A stretch of 42,081 bases of DNA from the NCBI GenBank assembly GCA_025457685.1, contig JALOTV010000001.1, positions 1 through 42,081 on the forward strand, in the 5' to 3' direction. Below, in pieces: positions 25,608 through 35,401 of this stretch. The position numbers were made by a program, and so were the translations under genes. Position 1 is the stretch's first letter; each line of letters begins with the position of its first letter. This DNA is from Opitutaceae bacterium (GTDB taxonomy: Bacteria; Verrucomicrobiota; Verrucomicrobiia; Opitutales; Opitutaceae). The notes beneath the pieces were generated by a model. It was given only the letters and a program-made list of their open reading frames with translations. It was not told the DNA's origin and made no database searches.

Positions 25608-28600
25608 TCAGGGCGCGGCGGAGACGGCGACGCGGAGAAAGCGGCGGGGCGATGCCGCCACGGGGCGGGTATCGCTCACCGAGAGCGGGCCGGCCAGATT
25701 TTGCGCGCCGATACTGTGCCAGATTTCGGCCCACGGACCGTCGAGTTCGTCGCCGGCGTGAACGGCGTAGCGAAGGAACGGATCGTTCACCCGGGAAAAA
25801 TCCAAACGCAGGCGCCGCCCGTCACCAGCGTCGTCAAGCGTGATCGCGGGCGCGGCGCGCGATGCGGCGGAGAGGGGAGAGGAGCCGAGTGCATATTCCA
25901 GCAAATTGGCCAAGCCATCGCCATCGGCGTCGGCGGCGTCGGCCGCCTCGCCCGCGTTGGCCGATGTGCCGAAGACCGACATGCGCCAGACCATGAGCGG
26001 GGTCGGTGTAGAAGCGGAAACCAATTGGGATGCCACGCCGGGCCCCGCTGAGTTAATGCTGGATACCGTGTAATGGTAGGTCGCGCCTGCGGTGAGGCCG
26101 GTGTCGCGCCAGGATGCGCCGGACACTTGATTGGCGACGATGGTGAACGGGCCGGCGGCGGAGAAGGCGCGCATTATCCGGTAGCTCACGTCCGGATGGT
26201 CGACCGGCGTCCATGACAACGCGATGGCACCCGGCCCGTCCGGGATCGCGGCAAGGCCCCCGGGTGCGGGCGCGGTGCGACCGACGATCTGGAAGCCGGC
26301 GACCTTGAGCCTTTGCGTGCCGCCGTTGATGTTGACCGCGGTAAAGGTCGCGGTGAGAGGACCGGAGAGATTTTCGAAGCGCACGTAGTTGCCGAGTTCG
26401 ACATCCATGCCCGAGCCCAGCGTGGTGGAACTCGCCCGCAGGTAGTCACCGGGACCGGCTACCCGCGTGGCTGTGCCCGTGCGGACGAAGTAGGTGGTGT
26501 CGCCGATGGTGAAGCGCCCACCGCGATCGTTGGCCCCGGGCGTGTTTTCATCGGGATGGACGTAGAAGTAGACGTCGTAGTTCGCGTGCGGTATGCCGGT
26601 GACCGTCAATGTGGCGGGGGTGCCGCCGAACTTGTCCAGCACGGTGCGGAAAAGGGAGGCCTCGTCTCCGAGCGAACCTCCTCGATCACTGAAGCCGCCT
26701 GAATTGCCGTTGGTCAGCGTGGCGGTGACTCCGGTGACGGGGCGTCCGGCGGCGTCCAGCAATCCGGATTCGATAGTGCCGCCGGAAAAGTTGTTCCAAC
26801 GGGTGGCGCGAACGCCGGGTGCGCCGGCACGGTCGGACTCGACCATTGTTGCTCCGCTTGTCGGAGCGAGGTTAATGGAGAGGACGGCTGCGGCAGAGCC
26901 CGCTAGAATGGAGTTGGCATGTGATGGGTAGCTCTCGCCGTGCGAGTTCGTCGCGGTGACCGTGTAGTGGTAGGTCAGGCCCGGGAATGTGTTGGTATCC
27001 ACGAAAGTGGTGCCGGTCGCGGCGACGGCGATCACGTCGAATGGACCTTCCGGTGAGGTGGAGCGTCGGATGGTGTAACCCGTCGCACCGGAGGCGGGAG
27101 CCCATGTGAGCTCCGGTCCCTCCGTGCTTAGCGCGAGTTCGAGCCATGCGGGCGTGGCTGGCGCAGGTGCGGCATCGGATACGGCGTCCAGGGCCAGGAC
27201 CACCGTGCTTCGCGGCGGCACGGCAATGGTGGAGCCTGATTTGGATGCACCCGTGACGAGATCGGTGGCCGACACGAAATCCCTCGGTGTGCGCAAGTCG
27301 CGGGTGCGCTCGGCGGAGAGGTTGAGACCGAAGAGAAATCGCCCAAAGCGAAACGCGTAAAAATCCGGCCGCCCGCGAAACGGATCGTCGCGCGAAGCCC
27401 CGGGGGGCGAGTTGCCAAGTGGCAGCTTCTCGCCGGCGTAGGCGTTGCGCGGAGGGGCGGGCGGAACGTATAAGTCGGCCTCGGGCTTGTCCACGCGGTT
27501 GGGGCGGACAAAGAATCGCCCGCTGAAATCAAACAGAGGCGTGGTCTCCATGGTGCCGATCTGGTCCCAGACGCCGTTGGTGTAGTGGAACCGCGCCACG
27601 CCGTTTATCCCCGTGCCGGCTTTCGCCTGCCAGTAGGGCGCTATCCAAAGGCGCTCGGAGCCTTTTTGTGCGGCGACCACGCCGTTGACCTCGTCCGCCC
27701 AGGCAAAATCCGGCCGGCCGTCGCCCATCGGGAGTCGGTGCCCCGGGTCGGTTGCGCGGGCGACGACGGCGTAATCGGCGAAGACGTCCAGTGCGTTGAG
27801 CGTGGCGTAACCGCCCTGGGTCAAGGAGGGGAAGAATTGTCCGTCGGCCAGCATCTGCTTGGCGTAGCCGATGGCGAGGGGATCCAGGGTGGTGGCGGCG
27901 GTGAGCATGCCGGCGAGGGCGCCGGTGCGGTCGCCGTAGGCCGATTCGCCCCCGAAGCCGTTGCCGTCTGATTCGCCCGCGCCGCGCCAGGCAAGGTAGC
28001 CTATGGCGGCCATGCGCGGGTGGTGCAGCAAACCGGCGGGCTCGACCGCCGGACGGCGAAAGGCGGCGCGGGCGCGGAGCATGAGGGCCGCTTGGTCACG
28101 TAGGGCGGGGTCGCCGCTGAGGCGGTGGAAACGCGCCACGTAACTCTGAAGTTCACCGTAGTTCGTGCCGACATAGCCCCATTCGCGGGTCAGCCCCTTG
28201 GGTGTGACTTGGAAGTAGTCATCCCCATATGGCCGGCTGGAGCCTCCTCCCGGCAGATCGGAGCCAAGCCATGGCCGCAGCCCGGCCGCCTCGTGAAGGT
28301 AGCGCAGCGCCTCGGCCTCGGGCCAGGCGCGAGGGTCGCCGAGCGCACGCAGACCGAGGTTGGCTTTATATATGTTTTGGTCGGCGAGCATGCCTTGATT
28401 GGTCAGGGCGCGACCGTCCCGGTTATATCTCCCAAACTCGCGGCTGGCGTGCAGCATGTCCGCCCAGCCATGCCGGCGAAGGCGTGTGCCACCGGCGCCG
28501 AAGTCGACGAGCGTGTCCAGTTCCGGCGCGAGTTCCGCGGACAGCCGTTGAATAGCGTATCCAATGGGCCCATACAAACCACCCCAGTCGTCATCAACCC

Positions 28601-29567
28601 GTCCGGGATTGGCGGCGTAGTCGGTTGCGTGCAGGTCGATCAACTCCCGCACCCGGAGCGGAACGGCCGGATTCAAGTAGCCGGGCAGCGCGACTTGAAA
28701 CGGGTCGATCCTCCCGTCCACATGGTAGGAGCAGGCGAGAAATTCCACGCCGCCGGGAGTGAAATTGGAGGACGCGAGCGAGGGGGCGGTGTTTAGGCGA
28801 TTGTTGATTTGTCCCCGCACGGAGGCGAAATACGCGCTGTTGGATCCGAGCTGGCTCGTCGCCGACAGCGCCGGTCTGGGCGTGGTGACCGGTTCCGTTC
28901 CCTGGACCTCGCCGACCGGGTCGAGCCGCGGCTCGATGTGCGTATAGGCGCGATATATGCCGCGACTGGGCGCCTTCATGGTGAATTGGTAATTGCCGCC
29001 ATCGCCCTCGTAGCCGGCGCCGAGCGCATAAATCCGACCGCTGGCGATTATCCTGAAAGTGAGCGACTCCCTCCCCTGGGTCATCCAGAGGGGCAGCAGC
29101 ACGGTGGAGTAAAAAAAGCGACCCGGCAGGCTGGGACCGTAGCTGTCGTCGGTGAGGTTGGCTTGGTGGTCACCCTCGTGCCGATAACCGATTTGATATT
29201 CCACCCCGTCGAGCAGCACATAAACGTAGAGTCTGCCCTTCGACAGGTCGCCACGAGCGTCGTCGCCGCCCCAGAGCTTGGCGGAAAAGTAAGTCCGCCT
29301 GGTAGGATGGACCGCCAGGGTGAAGGTGGCCGAGCCGCCATAGATGCTCTCCGTTTCGCGCGGCTGAAAAACGCGATGCGGTTGGGCGAGAAGCGTGCCG
29401 CTCGGACCGGTGGCGACGGCGGAGTATTCCGCAACAAGACCGTGCTCGTTCTCCGACGCAGGATCACCAAAAATCACCTGGTCGAGCGCCGGCGCGGCCG
29501 ACGCGGCTGCGACAACCATGAACAATGCGGACAAAAGGCGTCTTGGGAAAACGAGGGGGAAATTCAT
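25608..29567 (-). CDS. Large secreted modular protein: unassigned N-terminal (putative alpha/alpha-toroid, enzyme-like) region, FN3, module X, FN3, TSP3-like C-terminal tail
   Basis: Start moved to ATG 29567 (MNFPLVFPRRLLSALFMVVAAASAAPA). Helical repeats such as 'GYVGTNYGELQSYVARFHRLSGDPALRDQAALMLRARAAF'; FN3-like 'PELTWAPASGATGYTIRRSTSPEGPFDVIAVAATGTTFVDTNTFPGLTYHYTVTATNSHGES'; tail 'DADGDGLANLLEYALGSSPLS...RRFLRVAVS'. Confidence 0.75.
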   Translation of the reverse strand: MNFPLVFPRRLLSALFMVVAAASAAPALDQVIFGDPASENEHGLVAEYSAVATGPSGTLLAQPHRVFQPRETESIYGGSATFTLAVHPTRRTYFSAKLWGGDDARGDLSKGRLYVYVLLDGVEYQIGYRHEGDHQANLTDDSYGPSLPGRFFYSTVLLPLWMTQGRESLTFRIIASGRIYALGAGYEGDGGNYQFTMKAPSRGIYRAYTHIEPRLDPVGEVQGTEPVTTPRPALSATSQLGSNSAYFASVRGQINNRLNTAPSLASSNFTPGGVEFLACSYHVDGRIDPFQVALPGYLNPAVPLRVRELIDLHATDYAANPGRVDDDWGGLYGPIGYAIQRLSAELAPELDTLVDFGAGGTRLRRHGWADMLHASREFGRYNRDGRALTNQGMLADQNIYKANLGLRALGDPRAWPEAEALRYLHEAAGLRPWLGSDLPGGGSSRPYGDDYFQVTPKGLTREWGYVGTNYGELQSYVARFHRLSGDPALRDQAALMLRARAAFRRPAVEPAGLLHHPRMAAIGYLAWRGAGESDGNGFGGESAYGDRTGALAGMLTAATTLDPLAIGYAKQMLADGQFFPSLTQGGYATLNALDVFADYAVVARATDPGHRLPMGDGRPDFAWADEVNGVVAAQKGSERLWIAPYWQAKAGTGINGVARFHYTNGVWDQIGTMETTPLFDFSGRFFVRPNRVDKPEADLYVPPAPPRNAYAGEKLPLGNSPPGASRDDPFRGRPDFYAFRFGRFLFGLNLSAERTRDLRTPRDFVSATDLVTGASKSGSTIAVPPRSTVVLALDAVSDAAPAPATPAWLELALSTEGPELTWAPASGATGYTIRRSTSPEGPFDVIAVAATGTTFVDTNTFPGLTYHYTVTATNSHGESYPSHANSILAGSAAAVLSINLAPTSGATMVESDRAGAPGVRATRWNNFSGGTIESGLLDAAGRPVTGVTATLTNGNSGGFSDRGGSLGDEASLFRTVLDKFGGTPATLTVTGIPHANYDVYFYVHPDENTPGANDRGGRFTIGDTTYFVRTGTATRVAGPGDYLRASSTTLGSGMDVELGNYVRFENLSGPLTATFTAVNINGGTQRLKVAGFQIVGRTAPAPGGLAAIPDGPGAIALSWTPVDHPDVSYRIMRAFSAAGPFTIVANQVSGASWRDTGLTAGATYHYTVSSINSAGPGVASQLVSASTPTPLMVWRMSVFGTSANAGEAADAADADGDGLANLLEYALGSSPLSAASRAAPAITLDDAGDGRRLRLDFSRVNDPFLRYAVHAGDELDGPWAEIWHSIGAQNLAGPLSVSDTRPVAASPRRFLRVAVSAAP

Positions 29568-29645: not shown

Positions 29646-29711
29646 TGTTTACACTAGAAACCTCACGTGGGAATTTAGCCGAGGAAGCGCCTGTGTTTTC
29701 CAGTGTAAACA
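29646..29711. promoter_or_regulatory. Candidate paired operator in the divergent intergenic region
   Basis: TGTTTACACTAGAAAC (29646..29661) and GTTTTCCAGTGTAAACA (29695..29711; reverse complement TGTTTACACTGGAAAAC) form a near-perfect inverted repeat with a 33-nt spacer, between the divergent 29567(-) and 29775(+) genes. Confidence 0.6.
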
Positions 29712-29774
29712 TTGGTGCCCTTGTCCAGTCCGGAGTGCTTTGTTGGCATGATGGCAACCCCAACCCTTCCGAAC

Positions 29775-30542
29775 ATGCGTATGTCCCTGCCCATTTTTTC
29801 CGCGAAGTCCCGAGGCCGAGGCTTCACCTTGATCGAGCTTTTGACCGTGATCGCCATCATCGGGATCTTGGCCGCCATTTTGATACCCACGGTCGGATCT
29901 GTCCGGCGCAAAGCGCACCAAAGCAAATCCGTCAGCAACCTGCGTCAGCTCGGCATCGCGATGCGAACCTTCGCCAGCGACAACAAGGACATTTTACCCG
30001 CCGCAAATTACAACACCTCCAACACGGGCGGCGGAAGTTGGGATGAGGTGATCCTGCCCTATCTCTCCATCAAGCCTGACGAAAACGGCGTGGTGGCGCC
30101 ATCGGCCGAGAATCTTTTCTTTCACCCGGGAGACAAGGCGAGGCCCAACGAAAGCCGTGCGCGCCGTTCCTACGCGATGCCTCGCGGTCAAATCTCCCGG
30201 CCGACGCCTGGTTTTTGGATAGGCATACATGACACCAGCCGTCCGTTCCTCCGCCGCGGCACGCCGCTGAGTTTGGTGCCGACGCCTTCGCAGGTCATCC
30301 TGCTCACGACGCGTCGCAACAACGGCGACAACAGCTTCGTGGGATCATGGACCTTTGCGGACATCGGCGATGTTTCCAGTCAGATAGTCGTGCCGGAGCA
30401 GACTGATCGTATAAACGGCAACGGCACGCTCGAGTTCCTGTTTGTGGATGGAAGCGTGAAGGTCATGCGTCCCGAGGCCACTTGGGGCCGTGAGCAATTC
30501 GGCACCGCGTCCAACCCCAAGGGATACTGGCCGGTGCACTGA
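29775..30542 (+). CDS. Prepilin-type N-terminal cleavage/methylation domain protein (pseudopilin-like)
   Basis: 'SRGRGFTLIELLTVIAIIGILAAILIPTVGSVRRKAHQSKSVSNLRQLGIAMRTFASDNKDILPAAN' plus 'GNGTLEFLFVDGSVK' near the C-terminus. Start could be 29775 or 29781. Confidence 0.88.
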   Translation: MRMSLPIFSAKSRGRGFTLIELLTVIAIIGILAAILIPTVGSVRRKAHQSKSVSNLRQLGIAMRTFASDNKDILPAANYNTSNTGGGSWDEVILPYLSIKPDENGVVAPSAENLFFHPGDKARPNESRARRSYAMPRGQISRPTPGFWIGIHDTSRPFLRRGTPLSLVPTPSQVILLTTRRNNGDNSFVGSWTFADIGDVSSQIVVPEQTDRINGNGTLEFLFVDGSVKVMRPEATWGREQFGTASNPKGYWPVH

Positions 30543-30643
30543 TTTCATGGTTCTGCGCCACGCCCTCGTTCTTTGCGGACGCCGGCGTGTTTCCCTGTTC
30601 GCCCATCTTCAAAAACTCCAGCGATCAACCCCTAGATTTCCCC

Positions 30644-33600
30644 ATGTTCCGCTCTTACTTCCCCCGTTTTCGCACTCTGCTCGCCGCCTTGACCGCGATG
30701 GGTGTTTCCCAGGCGCTTAACGCGATCGATGCGATCAGTTTTAATGTGCATGGCATCACCGCCGCGAACTCTCTGCTCGCGCCCACGGCACAGGCTGGTG
30801 CGCCGGCCGCGCGTTCCGCCAATTGGAATTCTTTCTTCGGCGCGCCCGTGACCACGGCCGTCGATGGCAACGGTCGCACCCTCGCGCTTTCCCTCGGCTT
30901 CGTGGTCGGCTCCACCGGCGGCAGCATCTTCGGCGGCGGCAACGCGACCGATGGCGATCCACGGATGTTTGGCAGCTTTTTCGATCAATATAACGGCACC
31001 CCGAGCACCTTTACGATCTCGTCCATACCCTACGCGACCTACGACATTTATGTGTATTGTCTCGATGCGACCACGGGCAACAACCGTGGCGGGTCTGTGA
31101 GCGTTGGGGGTGCGACTAAATTTATCCGCACCGGAATCGCGGCCACCGTCACCACCGCGGACGGTTCCGGCTACCTCGAGGCGACCGACACCGTGAACAA
31201 CGGGGCGACGACCACGCTGGGCAATTACGTGCGATTCACCGGACTATCCGGTTCCTCGCAGACCATATCGACCGTCGCTTTGAACATGGGCGATGCCACG
31301 CAGCGTTTGAAGATCGTCGGCTTCCAGTTGGTAAATACCGGAGCCGCTTTGTCCGCGCCAGCCTCGGCCCCCGCCGCGCCGGGTATCGTCGAGATTGTCC
31401 CGGGCAACCAACGTGCGATCGTGGTTTGGGGCCGCGCGCTCGACGCCACGTCGTATTCGGTGCGCCGCGGCACGTCCGCCTCCGGGCCTTTCGTCGAGGT
31501 CGGGGTCACCGACGCGATGACCACGAAATTCACCGACACCGGTCTCACCAACGGGGACACTTATCACTACGTCGTCGCCGCCATTAACAGCCAGGGAGCC
31601 ACCGAGGGTGCCTCCGCGTCCGCCGTGCCCACCGATGGCGCGTCGCTTCGCGGGGTCGGCGTCCAATTTCGCTCCGGTGGCACGGCCATGGCTGCGGCCA
31701 CCCTAGCGGGTGCGCCGGGCGCCAGGCAGGCGAACTGGAATTCCTTCACCGGCAACACGCTCGATGCGATGAGCACATTGGTGGACAACACCGGCTCGGT
31801 CGTGTCCGGGCTCTCCTTCACCCATGCCGAGGTAAACAACAACTGGACCAACGCCGGCAGTCCTACGGTGAACGACGTCGCCTTGTATTCAGGCCACCAT
31901 GACAAGTTCGACGGCACGGCGGCTAACTTGACCGTGAGCGGCATCCCTTACGCCCGCTACGACGTTTATTTCTACATAAAGGACGATACCCTTGATCGCG
32001 CGGGCAGCGTCAGCATCGGCTCCACCACCTATTTCATCACCAGTATCTATGGCAACGGCGGCGGTCATCCCGCGTCGGATGGCACCGGCTACATCCGCTC
32101 CGCCGACACCGAGGCGACGCTAAACGGCGCGATCTACGACGTCTCAACCATCGCCAAGGGCAATTACGTCAAGTTCGAGGGCGTGACCGGCTCCAGCTTC
32201 ACCGCGAATTATACCGCGCTGGCCACCAGCGCCGCCGCGCGCCGGTTGAAGGTGGCGGGTTTCCAGATCGTGGACACCACGCCGGCCGGTTCCCCGCCGG
32301 CCAGCCCCACGGGCCTCGTCGCCAACGGTGGCGACGCTCAGGTCTCGCTTTCGTGGAATCCTGCGTCATCCGCCACCAGTTACACCGTGAAGCGATCCGA
32401 GTCTTACAACGGCGCCTTTACGGATCTCGCGACCATTGGAGGCACCAGCTACACTGATTCCACTGCGGTAAACGGCACTTTCTATTACTATACGGTCACC
32501 GCGAACAACACCGGCGGCTCCAGCGTCAATGCCACGCCCGTTAGCGCCGTCCCCTTGAATTACGTCCCGCTTGCGATTGGCTTCGACTTGCACGGTCCGG
32601 CCGCAGTCGCGTTGGCGCCCGCTGAGCGAGCTGGGGCGCCTTCCGTTCGTTTGCCCAATTGGAATGGCCTGCCCGTTCCGGTCTCCGAGGCCGGTTTCGT
32701 CACGCCTGGAATCATCGTGGACAGCGCGGGCGCGGCGGTCACCGGCCTCACCCTCACCTACACCAATGGCACGAGCGGAAACGCTGGGGCCTCCTCGGGG
32801 TTGGCCGACGATGCGAAACTCTTTGGCACCTTTGCCGACATTTACGGCGATACGCCCACCTCCACTCCGCCGCAGCTTCCCTCGCGCTTGATCGCGACGG
32901 GCATCCCCTACGCCACCTACGATGTCTATTTCTACATCCGCAACGATGGGGCGGCGCGCGCCGCGGCCATCACGGTCAACGGCACCACTTATTACACCCG
33001 CGGCGGATTGGCCGACCCTCAGGCCAACGGTGCTGGCTATGTGCTAAACCAGGGCACGGACGCGGGGCCTGTTCCCGATCCGCTCGCCGTTCCCACGGTC
33101 GTGTCGACCATTCCCCAGGGCAACATGATTCTGGTCAAGGGCTTGAGCGGAGACCTCGATGCCACGCTTGCCGCCCAGTATGCCGGTGACGCTTTTCCGC
33201 GTCTCAAGCTCGGTGGATTCCAGATCGTGAAGTCCGGTGCGCCCGCGCCTGCTACCACCGCGCCGGCCTCGGTCGTCGGCGTCTCGGTCGTCGGCGGCGT
33301 GGGCCAAAACACCGTGACTTGGTCGCCGGTGAACGGTGCCACGGGTTACCGCGTGGAACGCGCCGACAGCCCGGCCGGGCCCTACGTGGCGCTCGCGACT
33401 GTGTCCGCCTTCGTCAACACCTACACCGACTCCAACCTGCCCGACAACACGACCTATTATTATCAAGTCGTCGCACTGAATTCCGTCGGCGATGCCGTGG
33501 CTTCCTCGGTGGTTTCCGGCACGACCAACCTCGCCCCCGCGACCGGCCTCGCTGCCACCGCCGGCGACGGCCAGGTCACGCTCTCCTGGACCGGCACCGC

Positions 33601-35401
33601 CATCGCCACCGGCTACGAGATCCGGGTGCGCGACGCGGCCGGCGCTTTCCCCGAACTGCCCGCCCAGACGGTCACCGGCACCAGCGCCACCGTCACCGGT
33701 CTGACCAACGGCAACGCCTACTACTTCGTCGTCCGCGTCCGCTCGGGCGTGCTCTCCAGCGCTGACACCGCCGAGGTGTTGTCCGTGCCGGTGAAGCAGT
33801 CCGTGGTCCGCTCCATCGGTCTTAATTTCACCAATGCCGCCGCAGCCATCGCCGCCAACGTCCCGTCTGGCGTGGCGAACTACCGTCAGGGCAACTGGAA
33901 CAACTACCAGGTCACCGCTCCCAACACCGTGGCGGTGCTGGGGCCTGTCGCCGGCTCCTATGTGGACAACACCGGCGTGGCCGTTTCCGGTTTCACCTCC
34001 GAATTCACCAGCAGCGCGAGCTCGACCGGCGCTCGCGGCAAATCGACCGACGACGGCATCTACCGCTCCATGTTCGACCAGAGCGATGCCGGCGCCTCCA
34101 ACGTCGTGCTCTTCGGCATCCCCTATGCCAAATACGACCTGCTGGTCTACGTGTATGATGACAACCTGCGCCGTGTCGGCTCTGTGACGGTCAACGATCT
34201 CAACACGGTTACCACCTACTACATCCGTGGTCTTGGCGAATCAGAGAACCTCGGTAATCCGAACTCCGCCGGTCAAGGCTATGTGCTTGCCAACCAGACC
34301 ACGCTGCCCGCCGGAGGCGCCGTCGCCGCCGCGCAGGGCAACTACCTCCATATCGTCGGCCTCACCTCTCCCGCCGTGCAAGTGGAGTTCACCGCTCTGC
34401 CCGGAGGCGAGGCCACGCGGCGTATCAAGATTGCCGCCGTGCAGGTCGTGAACACCAGCGAATCCACCAGTCTGCCCGCCGCCGCGACCGACTTGGCCGC
34501 CGTCGCGGGCAACGGCCAGGTTGCCTTGAGCTGGACCGCAGCCTCGGCGGTCTCGAGCTACCACGTGCGCCGCTCTGTCGTCGCCGGTGGTCCCTACGAG
34601 ACCATCGCCCGCGACGTCGCCGGATCGACCTACCTCGATACCTCGGTGACCAACGGCGTGACCTACCACTATGTCGTCACCTCGGTCGGTTCCACCGCAG
34701 GCACCGACTCCACCGAGGTCTCCGCCACGCCCAATCTCCCGGCTCCCGCGGCTCCGACCAACCTCGTCGCCATCGGTCGCGACGGTGCGGTCGATCTGAG
34801 CTGGAACGCGGCCGCCACCGCGACGACCTACACGGTCCGTCGGGCGACCACCGCCGGCGGCCCCTACGACGATATCAGCGTCGGCGTGGTCTCGGGCACG
34901 AGCTACACGGATAGTTCCGTGACCAACGGCACGACCTACTACTACGTCGTCGCCGGCGTCGCGGGCACCTCGGTCGGGCCCAACTCGAACCAAGCCTCGG
35001 CCACCCCGAACGGCAATGCTTTGGAAACCTGGCGCCAGTCCTACTTTGGCGCCGGCGCGACCAACACGGGCGCCGCCGCCAACAACGCCGATCCGGACGC
35101 CGACGGTATCGCCAACTTGATCGAATACGCCACGGGCACCGATCCCCTAGTCGCGGGTCCTTCGCCCGTCACGATCGGGCGCTCCGGCAATTCGCTCACG
35201 CTCACCTACACGCGCATCGCCGATCCCTTGCTCATCTACACCGTCGAAGGTGGCGATGATCTCTCAACTTGGAGCACGATCACCGCTGACAATAACCCCA
35301 GCACCGGCGTGCAAAACATCGCCGGTCAGGTGACGGTCATCGACACGGTTTCGTTGACCTCCCAGCCACGCCGTTTCCTGCGGCTGAAGGTCTCTTACTG
35401 A
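30644..35401 (+). CDS. Giant secreted modular protein: four copies of module X alternating with six FN3-like domains and a TSP3-like C-terminal tail
   Basis: Start at ATG 30644 (MFRSYFPRFRTLLAALTAMGVSQALNA signal). FN3-like units e.g. 'APTNLVAIGRDGAVDLSWNAAATATTYTVRRATTAGGPYDDISVGVVSGTSYTDSSVTNGTTYYYVVAG'; tail 'NADPDADGIANLIEYATGTDPLVAG...PRRFLRLKVSY'. Confidence 0.85.
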   Translation: MFRSYFPRFRTLLAALTAMGVSQALNAIDAISFNVHGITAANSLLAPTAQAGAPAARSANWNSFFGAPVTTAVDGNGRTLALSLGFVVGSTGGSIFGGGNATDGDPRMFGSFFDQYNGTPSTFTISSIPYATYDIYVYCLDATTGNNRGGSVSVGGATKFIRTGIAATVTTADGSGYLEATDTVNNGATTTLGNYVRFTGLSGSSQTISTVALNMGDATQRLKIVGFQLVNTGAALSAPASAPAAPGIVEIVPGNQRAIVVWGRALDATSYSVRRGTSASGPFVEVGVTDAMTTKFTDTGLTNGDTYHYVVAAINSQGATEGASASAVPTDGASLRGVGVQFRSGGTAMAAATLAGAPGARQANWNSFTGNTLDAMSTLVDNTGSVVSGLSFTHAEVNNNWTNAGSPTVNDVALYSGHHDKFDGTAANLTVSGIPYARYDVYFYIKDDTLDRAGSVSIGSTTYFITSIYGNGGGHPASDGTGYIRSADTEATLNGAIYDVSTIAKGNYVKFEGVTGSSFTANYTALATSAAARRLKVAGFQIVDTTPAGSPPASPTGLVANGGDAQVSLSWNPASSATSYTVKRSESYNGAFTDLATIGGTSYTDSTAVNGTFYYYTVTANNTGGSSVNATPVSAVPLNYVPLAIGFDLHGPAAVALAPAERAGAPSVRLPNWNGLPVPVSEAGFVTPGIIVDSAGAAVTGLTLTYTNGTSGNAGASSGLADDAKLFGTFADIYGDTPTSTPPQLPSRLIATGIPYATYDVYFYIRNDGAARAAAITVNGTTYYTRGGLADPQANGAGYVLNQGTDAGPVPDPLAVPTVVSTIPQGNMILVKGLSGDLDATLAAQYAGDAFPRLKLGGFQIVKSGAPAPATTAPASVVGVSVVGGVGQNTVTWSPVNGATGYRVERADSPAGPYVALATVSAFVNTYTDSNLPDNTTYYYQVVALNSVGDAVASSVVSGTTNLAPATGLAATAGDGQVTLSWTGTAIATGYEIRVRDAAGAFPELPAQTVTGTSATVTGLTNGNAYYFVVRVRSGVLSSADTAEVLSVPVKQSVVRSIGLNFTNAAAAIAANVPSGVANYRQGNWNNYQVTAPNTVAVLGPVAGSYVDNTGVAVSGFTSEFTSSASSTGARGKSTDDGIYRSMFDQSDAGASNVVLFGIPYAKYDLLVYVYDDNLRRVGSVTVNDLNTVTTYYIRGLGESENLGNPNSAGQGYVLANQTTLPAGGAVAAAQGNYLHIVGLTSPAVQVEFTALPGGEATRRIKIAAVQVVNTSESTSLPAAATDLAAVAGNGQVALSWTAASAVSSYHVRRSVVAGGPYETIARDVAGSTYLDTSVTNGVTYHYVVTSVGSTAGTDSTEVSATPNLPAPAAPTNLVAIGRDGAVDLSWNAAATATTYTVRRATTAGGPYDDISVGVVSGTSYTDSSVTNGTTYYYVVAGVAGTSVGPNSNQASATPNGNALETWRQSYFGAGATNTGAAANNADPDADGIANLIEYATGTDPLVAGPSPVTIGRSGNSLTLTYTRIADPLLIYTVEGGDDLSTWSTITADNNPSTGVQNIAGQVTVIDTVSLTSQPRRFLRLKVSY
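30728..34457 (+). repeat. Four diverged in-frame copies of a ~200-225 aa module (X1 ~30728-31341, X2 ~31645-32281, X3 ~32561-33238, X4 ~33798-34457)
   Basis: Each copy has GAPxxRxxNWNxF, then (S/T/F)GIPYAxYD(V/I/L)xxYxxxD, then GNYVxFxGLSG, then RLK(V/I)xGFQ(I/L)V; boundaries approximate. Confidence 0.75.

Follow-up and report, generated by a model that had tools for sequence, protein, structure and literature searches.

An unnamed module family of predicted beta-sandwich fold alternates with FN3 units in a secreted protein from a carbohydrate-utilization cluster of Opitutaceae

Genes and domains at the locus

The window, the whole 42,081-nucleotide stretch of Opitutaceae DNA that was analyzed (GCA_025457685.1, contig JALOTV010000001.1, positions 1 to 42,081), encodes glycoside hydrolases (GH95, GH2, GH43, and a GH36-type melibiase), a beta-helix protein, and an alginate-lyase-like protein with F5/8C. 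Genes for transport and regulation include a sugar MFS transporter, an ABC transporter, and LacI regulators. Within this carbohydrate-utilization cluster sits a gene for a protein with four copies of a module (named X herein). A co-directional pseudopilin gene lies about 100 bp upstream, and the four-X gene diverges from a neighbor that carries a fifth copy (Table 1).

Table 1. Features of the four-X gene and its neighbors in the window
Feature	Position	Strand	Details
Divergent neighbor gene	25608..29567	-	~800-aa N-terminal region, then F-X5-F-tail
C-terminal tail domain of neighbor	25611..25997	-	47% identical to four-X tail
FN3 unit after X5	26019..26267	-	
Module X5	26274..26891	-	In divergent neighbor gene; pairwise BLAST, five-copy profile
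PulG-like pseudopilin	29709..30542	+	N-methylation motif, DUF1559-type
Four-X secreted protein gene	30644..35401	+	1,585 aa counted from ATG
Signal-peptide-like N terminus, four-X protein		+	MFRSYFPRFRTLLAALTAMGVSQALNA, X1 directly after; judged by eye
Module X1	30728..31342	+	Pairwise BLAST, five-copy profile
FN3 unit F1	31352..31639	+	Pfam and PDB matches; boundaries by eye
Module X2	31640..32281	+	Pairwise BLAST, five-copy profile, AlphaFold2 model
FN3 unit F2	32291..32563	+	Pfam and PDB matches; boundaries by eye
Module X3	32564..33238	+	Pairwise BLAST, five-copy profile
FN3 unit F3	33245..33523	+	Pfam and PDB matches; boundaries by eye
FN3 unit F4	33530..33799	+	Pfam and PDB matches; boundaries by eye
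Module X4	33800..34459	+	Pairwise BLAST, five-copy profile
FN3 unit F5	34463..34732	+	Pfam and PDB matches; boundaries by eye
FN3 unit F6	34736..35017	+	Closest PDB chain 3mpc; boundaries by eye
C-terminal tail domain, four-X protein	35021..35398	+	DPDxDG segment, beta-rich-looking part, terminal RRFLRLKVSY at stop

The reading frame is open over 30494-35401 on the forward strand, and the ATG at 30644 was taken as the start of the gene. The span of 30728-34457 given in the original prediction holds for the X1 to X4 core and falls short of the whole gene (30644-35401). At 1,585 aa, the secreted protein is on the small side for the term giant used there, but some X-bearing relatives do exceed 9,000 aa. 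The order that it proposed, X1-F-X2-F-X3-F-F-X4-F-F and the tail, is correct and is preceded by a signal-peptide-like N terminus; the X copies are separated by FN3 units (F), six in all. Pfam fn3 (PF00041) matches the protein with an E-value of 8.2e-22, with five stretches passing individually, and PDB matches cover stretches of all six units. The nearest PDB matches of some units are carbohydrate-active, namely 5g56 (a CBM6 protein) and 9vsf (a beta-1,3-glucanase). No recognized catalytic domain was found in the four-X protein using Pfam and NCBIfam.

The fifth copy had been predicted on the minus strand and was found there at 26274-26891. The N-terminal ~800 residues of the protein that carries it (27160-29567, minus strand) produced no useful match in Pfam, NCBIfam, or PDB, and this region may be an enzyme from a family not yet described. 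Neither of the two window X proteins has a Pfam or NCBIfam match to PEP-CTERM or ends in the PEP motif, transmembrane helix, and basic cluster of such proteins; the four-X protein ends in RRFLRLKVSY and its neighbor in RRFLRVAVSAAP.

Kinship, distribution, and architectures of module X

All motifs quoted for the four diverged copies and their shared blocks were recovered in frame. Pairwise BLAST comparisons among X1 to X5 gave identities of 29-40% and E-values of 1e-9 to 1e-32 (for a nominal database size of 1e8 letters). A five-copy profile recovers each of them at E-values of 1e-79 to 1e-90. Judged from these sequence comparisons, the similarity is far beyond chance. With the same profile, a sixth copy that is more divergent was identified in another part of the genome (C191, E-value 3e-33). 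A family set of 59 modules, comprising the five window copies and 54 relatives, was used for further comparisons. Five residues are invariant across all 59 (G24, W33, Y107, Y112, and Q209, X2 numbering). In a phylogenetic tree, the window copies fall inside one supported 13-member subfamily that also includes modules from other classes and from a Planctomycetota-titled MAG. This tree does not show X1 to X4 to be mutual closest relatives, and a constraint grouping them was not rejected (p 0.29). At 29-40% identity they do not appear to be recent duplicates, and recent duplication is neither shown nor rejected by the tree. Copies from the same locus do cluster for a Roseibacillus (L020) and a Planctomycetota (L024).

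The claim that X is not a named family was borne out. None of the 59 modules, scanned one by one against Pfam and NCBIfam, gave a match above the cut-off; stray matches reached E-values of 0.02-0.03 at best, and each of these was confined to one or two members. Scans of both window proteins likewise yielded no credible Pfam or NCBIfam match over X. Nothing significant was identified when the 59-row profile was compared to PDB chain sequences, and no match to a defined CBM family was found by sequence in Pfam, NCBIfam, or PDB. Seven viral matches in BFVD with E-values <0.001 were partial and uninformative, with few named, and no match was found in plasmid records. No published description of X was found in the open-licence literature. 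When judged against Pfam, NCBIfam, and PDB, X is a genuine module family that lacks a name, and its structural type is a familiar one.

Its distribution is patchy. The 59-row profile identified X in 44 of 195 Verrucomicrobiota genomes, in 15 of 150 genomes of the family and 8 of 15 of the genus to which the window belongs, and X also occurs in 16 of 246 genomes of a second phylum of Planctomycetota type (G506; locus L026, Phycisphaeraceae), with copy counts from such large genome surveys being at least the numbers given. Among the 15 genomes of the genus, the four-X protein was found in the genome of the window only. X is a coherent, widespread module left blank by current annotation. Both phyla count major polysaccharide degraders among their members, and an X profile would allow hundreds of proteins to be annotated in one step.

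Relatives place X in a range of architectures. A single X with a PEP-CTERM anchor is recurrent, and Pfam PEP-CTERM is present in 7 of 39 X proteins; the window X proteins differ from these in having an unnamed tail domain in place of that signal. Fusions to enzymes include a protein with X at residues 36-229 followed by a sulfatase at 238-584 (L071) and another in which GH16 precedes X (L087). By inspection only, X is joined to an esterase-like alpha/beta hydrolase in three proteins, one from this genome (C191) and two others (L028 and L075). Inspection by eye showed some relatives in which X is accompanied by passenger repeats and PEP-CTERM, others have two or three X with TSP3 segments, and X also accompanies PKD, FN3, Ig, and passenger-repeat domains and occurs in FG-GAP and M56 proteins. 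About 10 copies are present in one 9,468-aa ORF and eight in part of a 9,797-aa ORF. These very long ORFs come from small genomes (G062 C3, L148 and L149; G026 C17, L146). An ~850-aa protein with an N-terminal X is shared by a group of genomes of ~2.7-3.2 Mb from one genus (L044, L046, L051, L053, and similar loci).

Predicted fold and proposed role of module X

An AlphaFold2 model of X2 built from the 59-row alignment had a pLDDT of 91.6 and a pTM of 0.91; an earlier model from five sequences only (pLDDT 61.5) was discarded together with its Foldseek result. The retained model is a nearly all-beta sandwich with one short helix, and X is thus predicted to fold independently as a beta-sandwich at the module boundaries, in agreement with the original prediction. 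Its two refuting checks, for a named-family match and for the lack of an independent fold, were both run and neither refuted it.

Foldseek identified no match to the X2 model in PDB at an E-value <0.001. The most consistent match was to chains of 7EHG (MiXBM), with TM scores of 0.54-0.62 over the target and at most 0.42 over X; 7EHG is listed in a review with the PL8 xanthan lyase of Microbacterium sp. XT11 (PMC10881899). Lower rows contain CBM35, CBM6, CBM36, CBM61, and CBM4 modules. Cry toxins, Eph receptors, and ERGIC-53 are also among the top-ranked rows, so that what is matched is the shape of a sandwich in general. The Foldseek results therefore liken X to the CBM beta-sandwich generally, and none of the tests run assigns it to a CBM family. 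X shares the predicted sandwich with these CBMs and is likewise an accessory module beside enzymes and FN3 units, but it has no sequence similarity to them and is longer (about 205 aa versus about 135). As is expected of a CBM, the confident X2 model makes X a discrete folding unit, and in relatives this unit is fused to sulfatase and GH16 domains.

X is probably a new carbohydrate-binding or adhesive module family, a role that the original prediction also proposed. We infer glycan binding by X on circumstantial grounds, namely the distant likeness to CBM sandwiches, the GH16 and sulfatase fusions, and the carbohydrate-utilization cluster; a polysaccharide ligand and a surface location are likewise putative. 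X would be an undescribed ~205-aa beta-sandwich family acting like a carbohydrate-binding module, and the four-X protein a multivalent, non-catalytic surface protein that captures glycans. X1 to X4 would hold polysaccharide, the FN3 units would act as spacers that keep them apart, the tail would direct the protein to the cell surface or the exterior, and substrate would be kept near the enzymes of the same cluster. The attachment of X5 to a large, possibly enzymatic region in the neighbor was also counted in favor, as were the carbohydrate-active nearest PDB matches of some FN3 units. Counted against were the many X proteins without an enzyme (PEP-CTERM singles, passenger-repeat, FG-GAP, and M56 proteins), the low TM scores over the whole of X, and the lack of a Foldseek match at the threshold. 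The most conserved residues seem to have structural roles and did not point to a binding site; for this reason, we put the chances of the glycan-capturing reading at about even.

A somewhat less probable explanation is that X is a structural or adhesive module of a surface matrix, Ig-type-like and with no sugar specificity, with the four-X protein serving as a stalk or biofilm adhesin and lying beside carbohydrate genes by chance. The recurrence of X in very long proteins such as the 9,468-aa ORF would fit such a role, as would its company of PKD, FN3, Ig, and passenger-repeat domains, the common single-X PEP-CTERM proteins, and the structural look of the conserved residues, but the sulfatase and GH16 fusions and the cluster context are the arrangement expected of binding modules. 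It is unlikely that X is a CAZy-numbered carbohydrate-binding family absent from Pfam, NCBIfam, and PDB; its fold resembles those of several CBMs, but no sequence match was found among all PDB chains. Least probable is a kinship of X to malectin or galactose-binding-like domains so remote that it lies beyond the reach of curated models: malectin (PF11721) is of sugar-binding type, occurs in the same phylum, and has a 'Y.V.L.F' motif comparable by eye to the 'Y.V..Y' strand of the X sandwich, but no X has a Pfam match, kinship was rejected when the X profile was aligned to one of 17 malectin domains from that phylum (hhalign probability 0.3%), and in the one protein with both (L094) the Pfam malectin domain (546-686) is separate from X (1362-1562).

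The C-terminal tail domain

The last ~125 residues of both window X proteins form a tail that consists of a DPDxDG segment and a part ending in RRFLRL. Between 11 and 67 copies per genome were identified in the 15 genomes of the genus, with 50 in the window's own incomplete genome. A 40-row profile identified the tail in 126 of 195 Verrucomicrobiota genomes. Matches in the G506 phylum (16 of 149 genomes) are all weak, none is full-length, and most are centered on the DPDxDG segment; the full-length tail thus appears to occur mainly in Verrucomicrobiota. In nearly all ORFs inspected it ends 0-3 residues before the stop; exceptions occur, such as L102 with 338 residues after the domain.

Pfam and NCBIfam matches to 40 tail members are weak or partial only, with TSP3_bac in four and an Amuc_1099 pilus-system model in eleven (best E-value 2e-5), and none is to a sorting-domain model. 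No published description of the tail was found in the open-licence literature. In Bacteroidota, many long secreted proteins finish in a conserved type IX secretion C-terminal domain. The tail resembles these domains in being conserved and in its terminal position on many long proteins, but differs from them in sequence and phylum. The tail reads like a secretion or surface-sorting signal, and we infer such a role for this unnamed domain. This finding may matter more than X: a sorting role of the tail would explain how dozens of long enzymes and adhesins come to lie outside the cell in Verrucomicrobiota, a process for which the open-licence literature yielded no description.

A PulG-like pseudopilin is a possible dedicated export partner of tail proteins. 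A broader proposal, for which our confidence is low, is that X is a new carbohydrate-binding family of Verrucomicrobiota and a Planctomycetota-type phylum and that the tail marks an undescribed Verrucomicrobiota secretion or sorting route, serving tens of long proteins per genome and perhaps having a dedicated pseudopilin. The genome of a verrucomicrobial alginate degrader has 67 homologs of one such pseudopilin, and type II export of its alginate lyases has been suggested (PMC13274419). PulG-like pseudopilin genes lie directly beside tail-bearing genes at four loci, the window, L155, L157, and L163, among the 17 stretches scanned.
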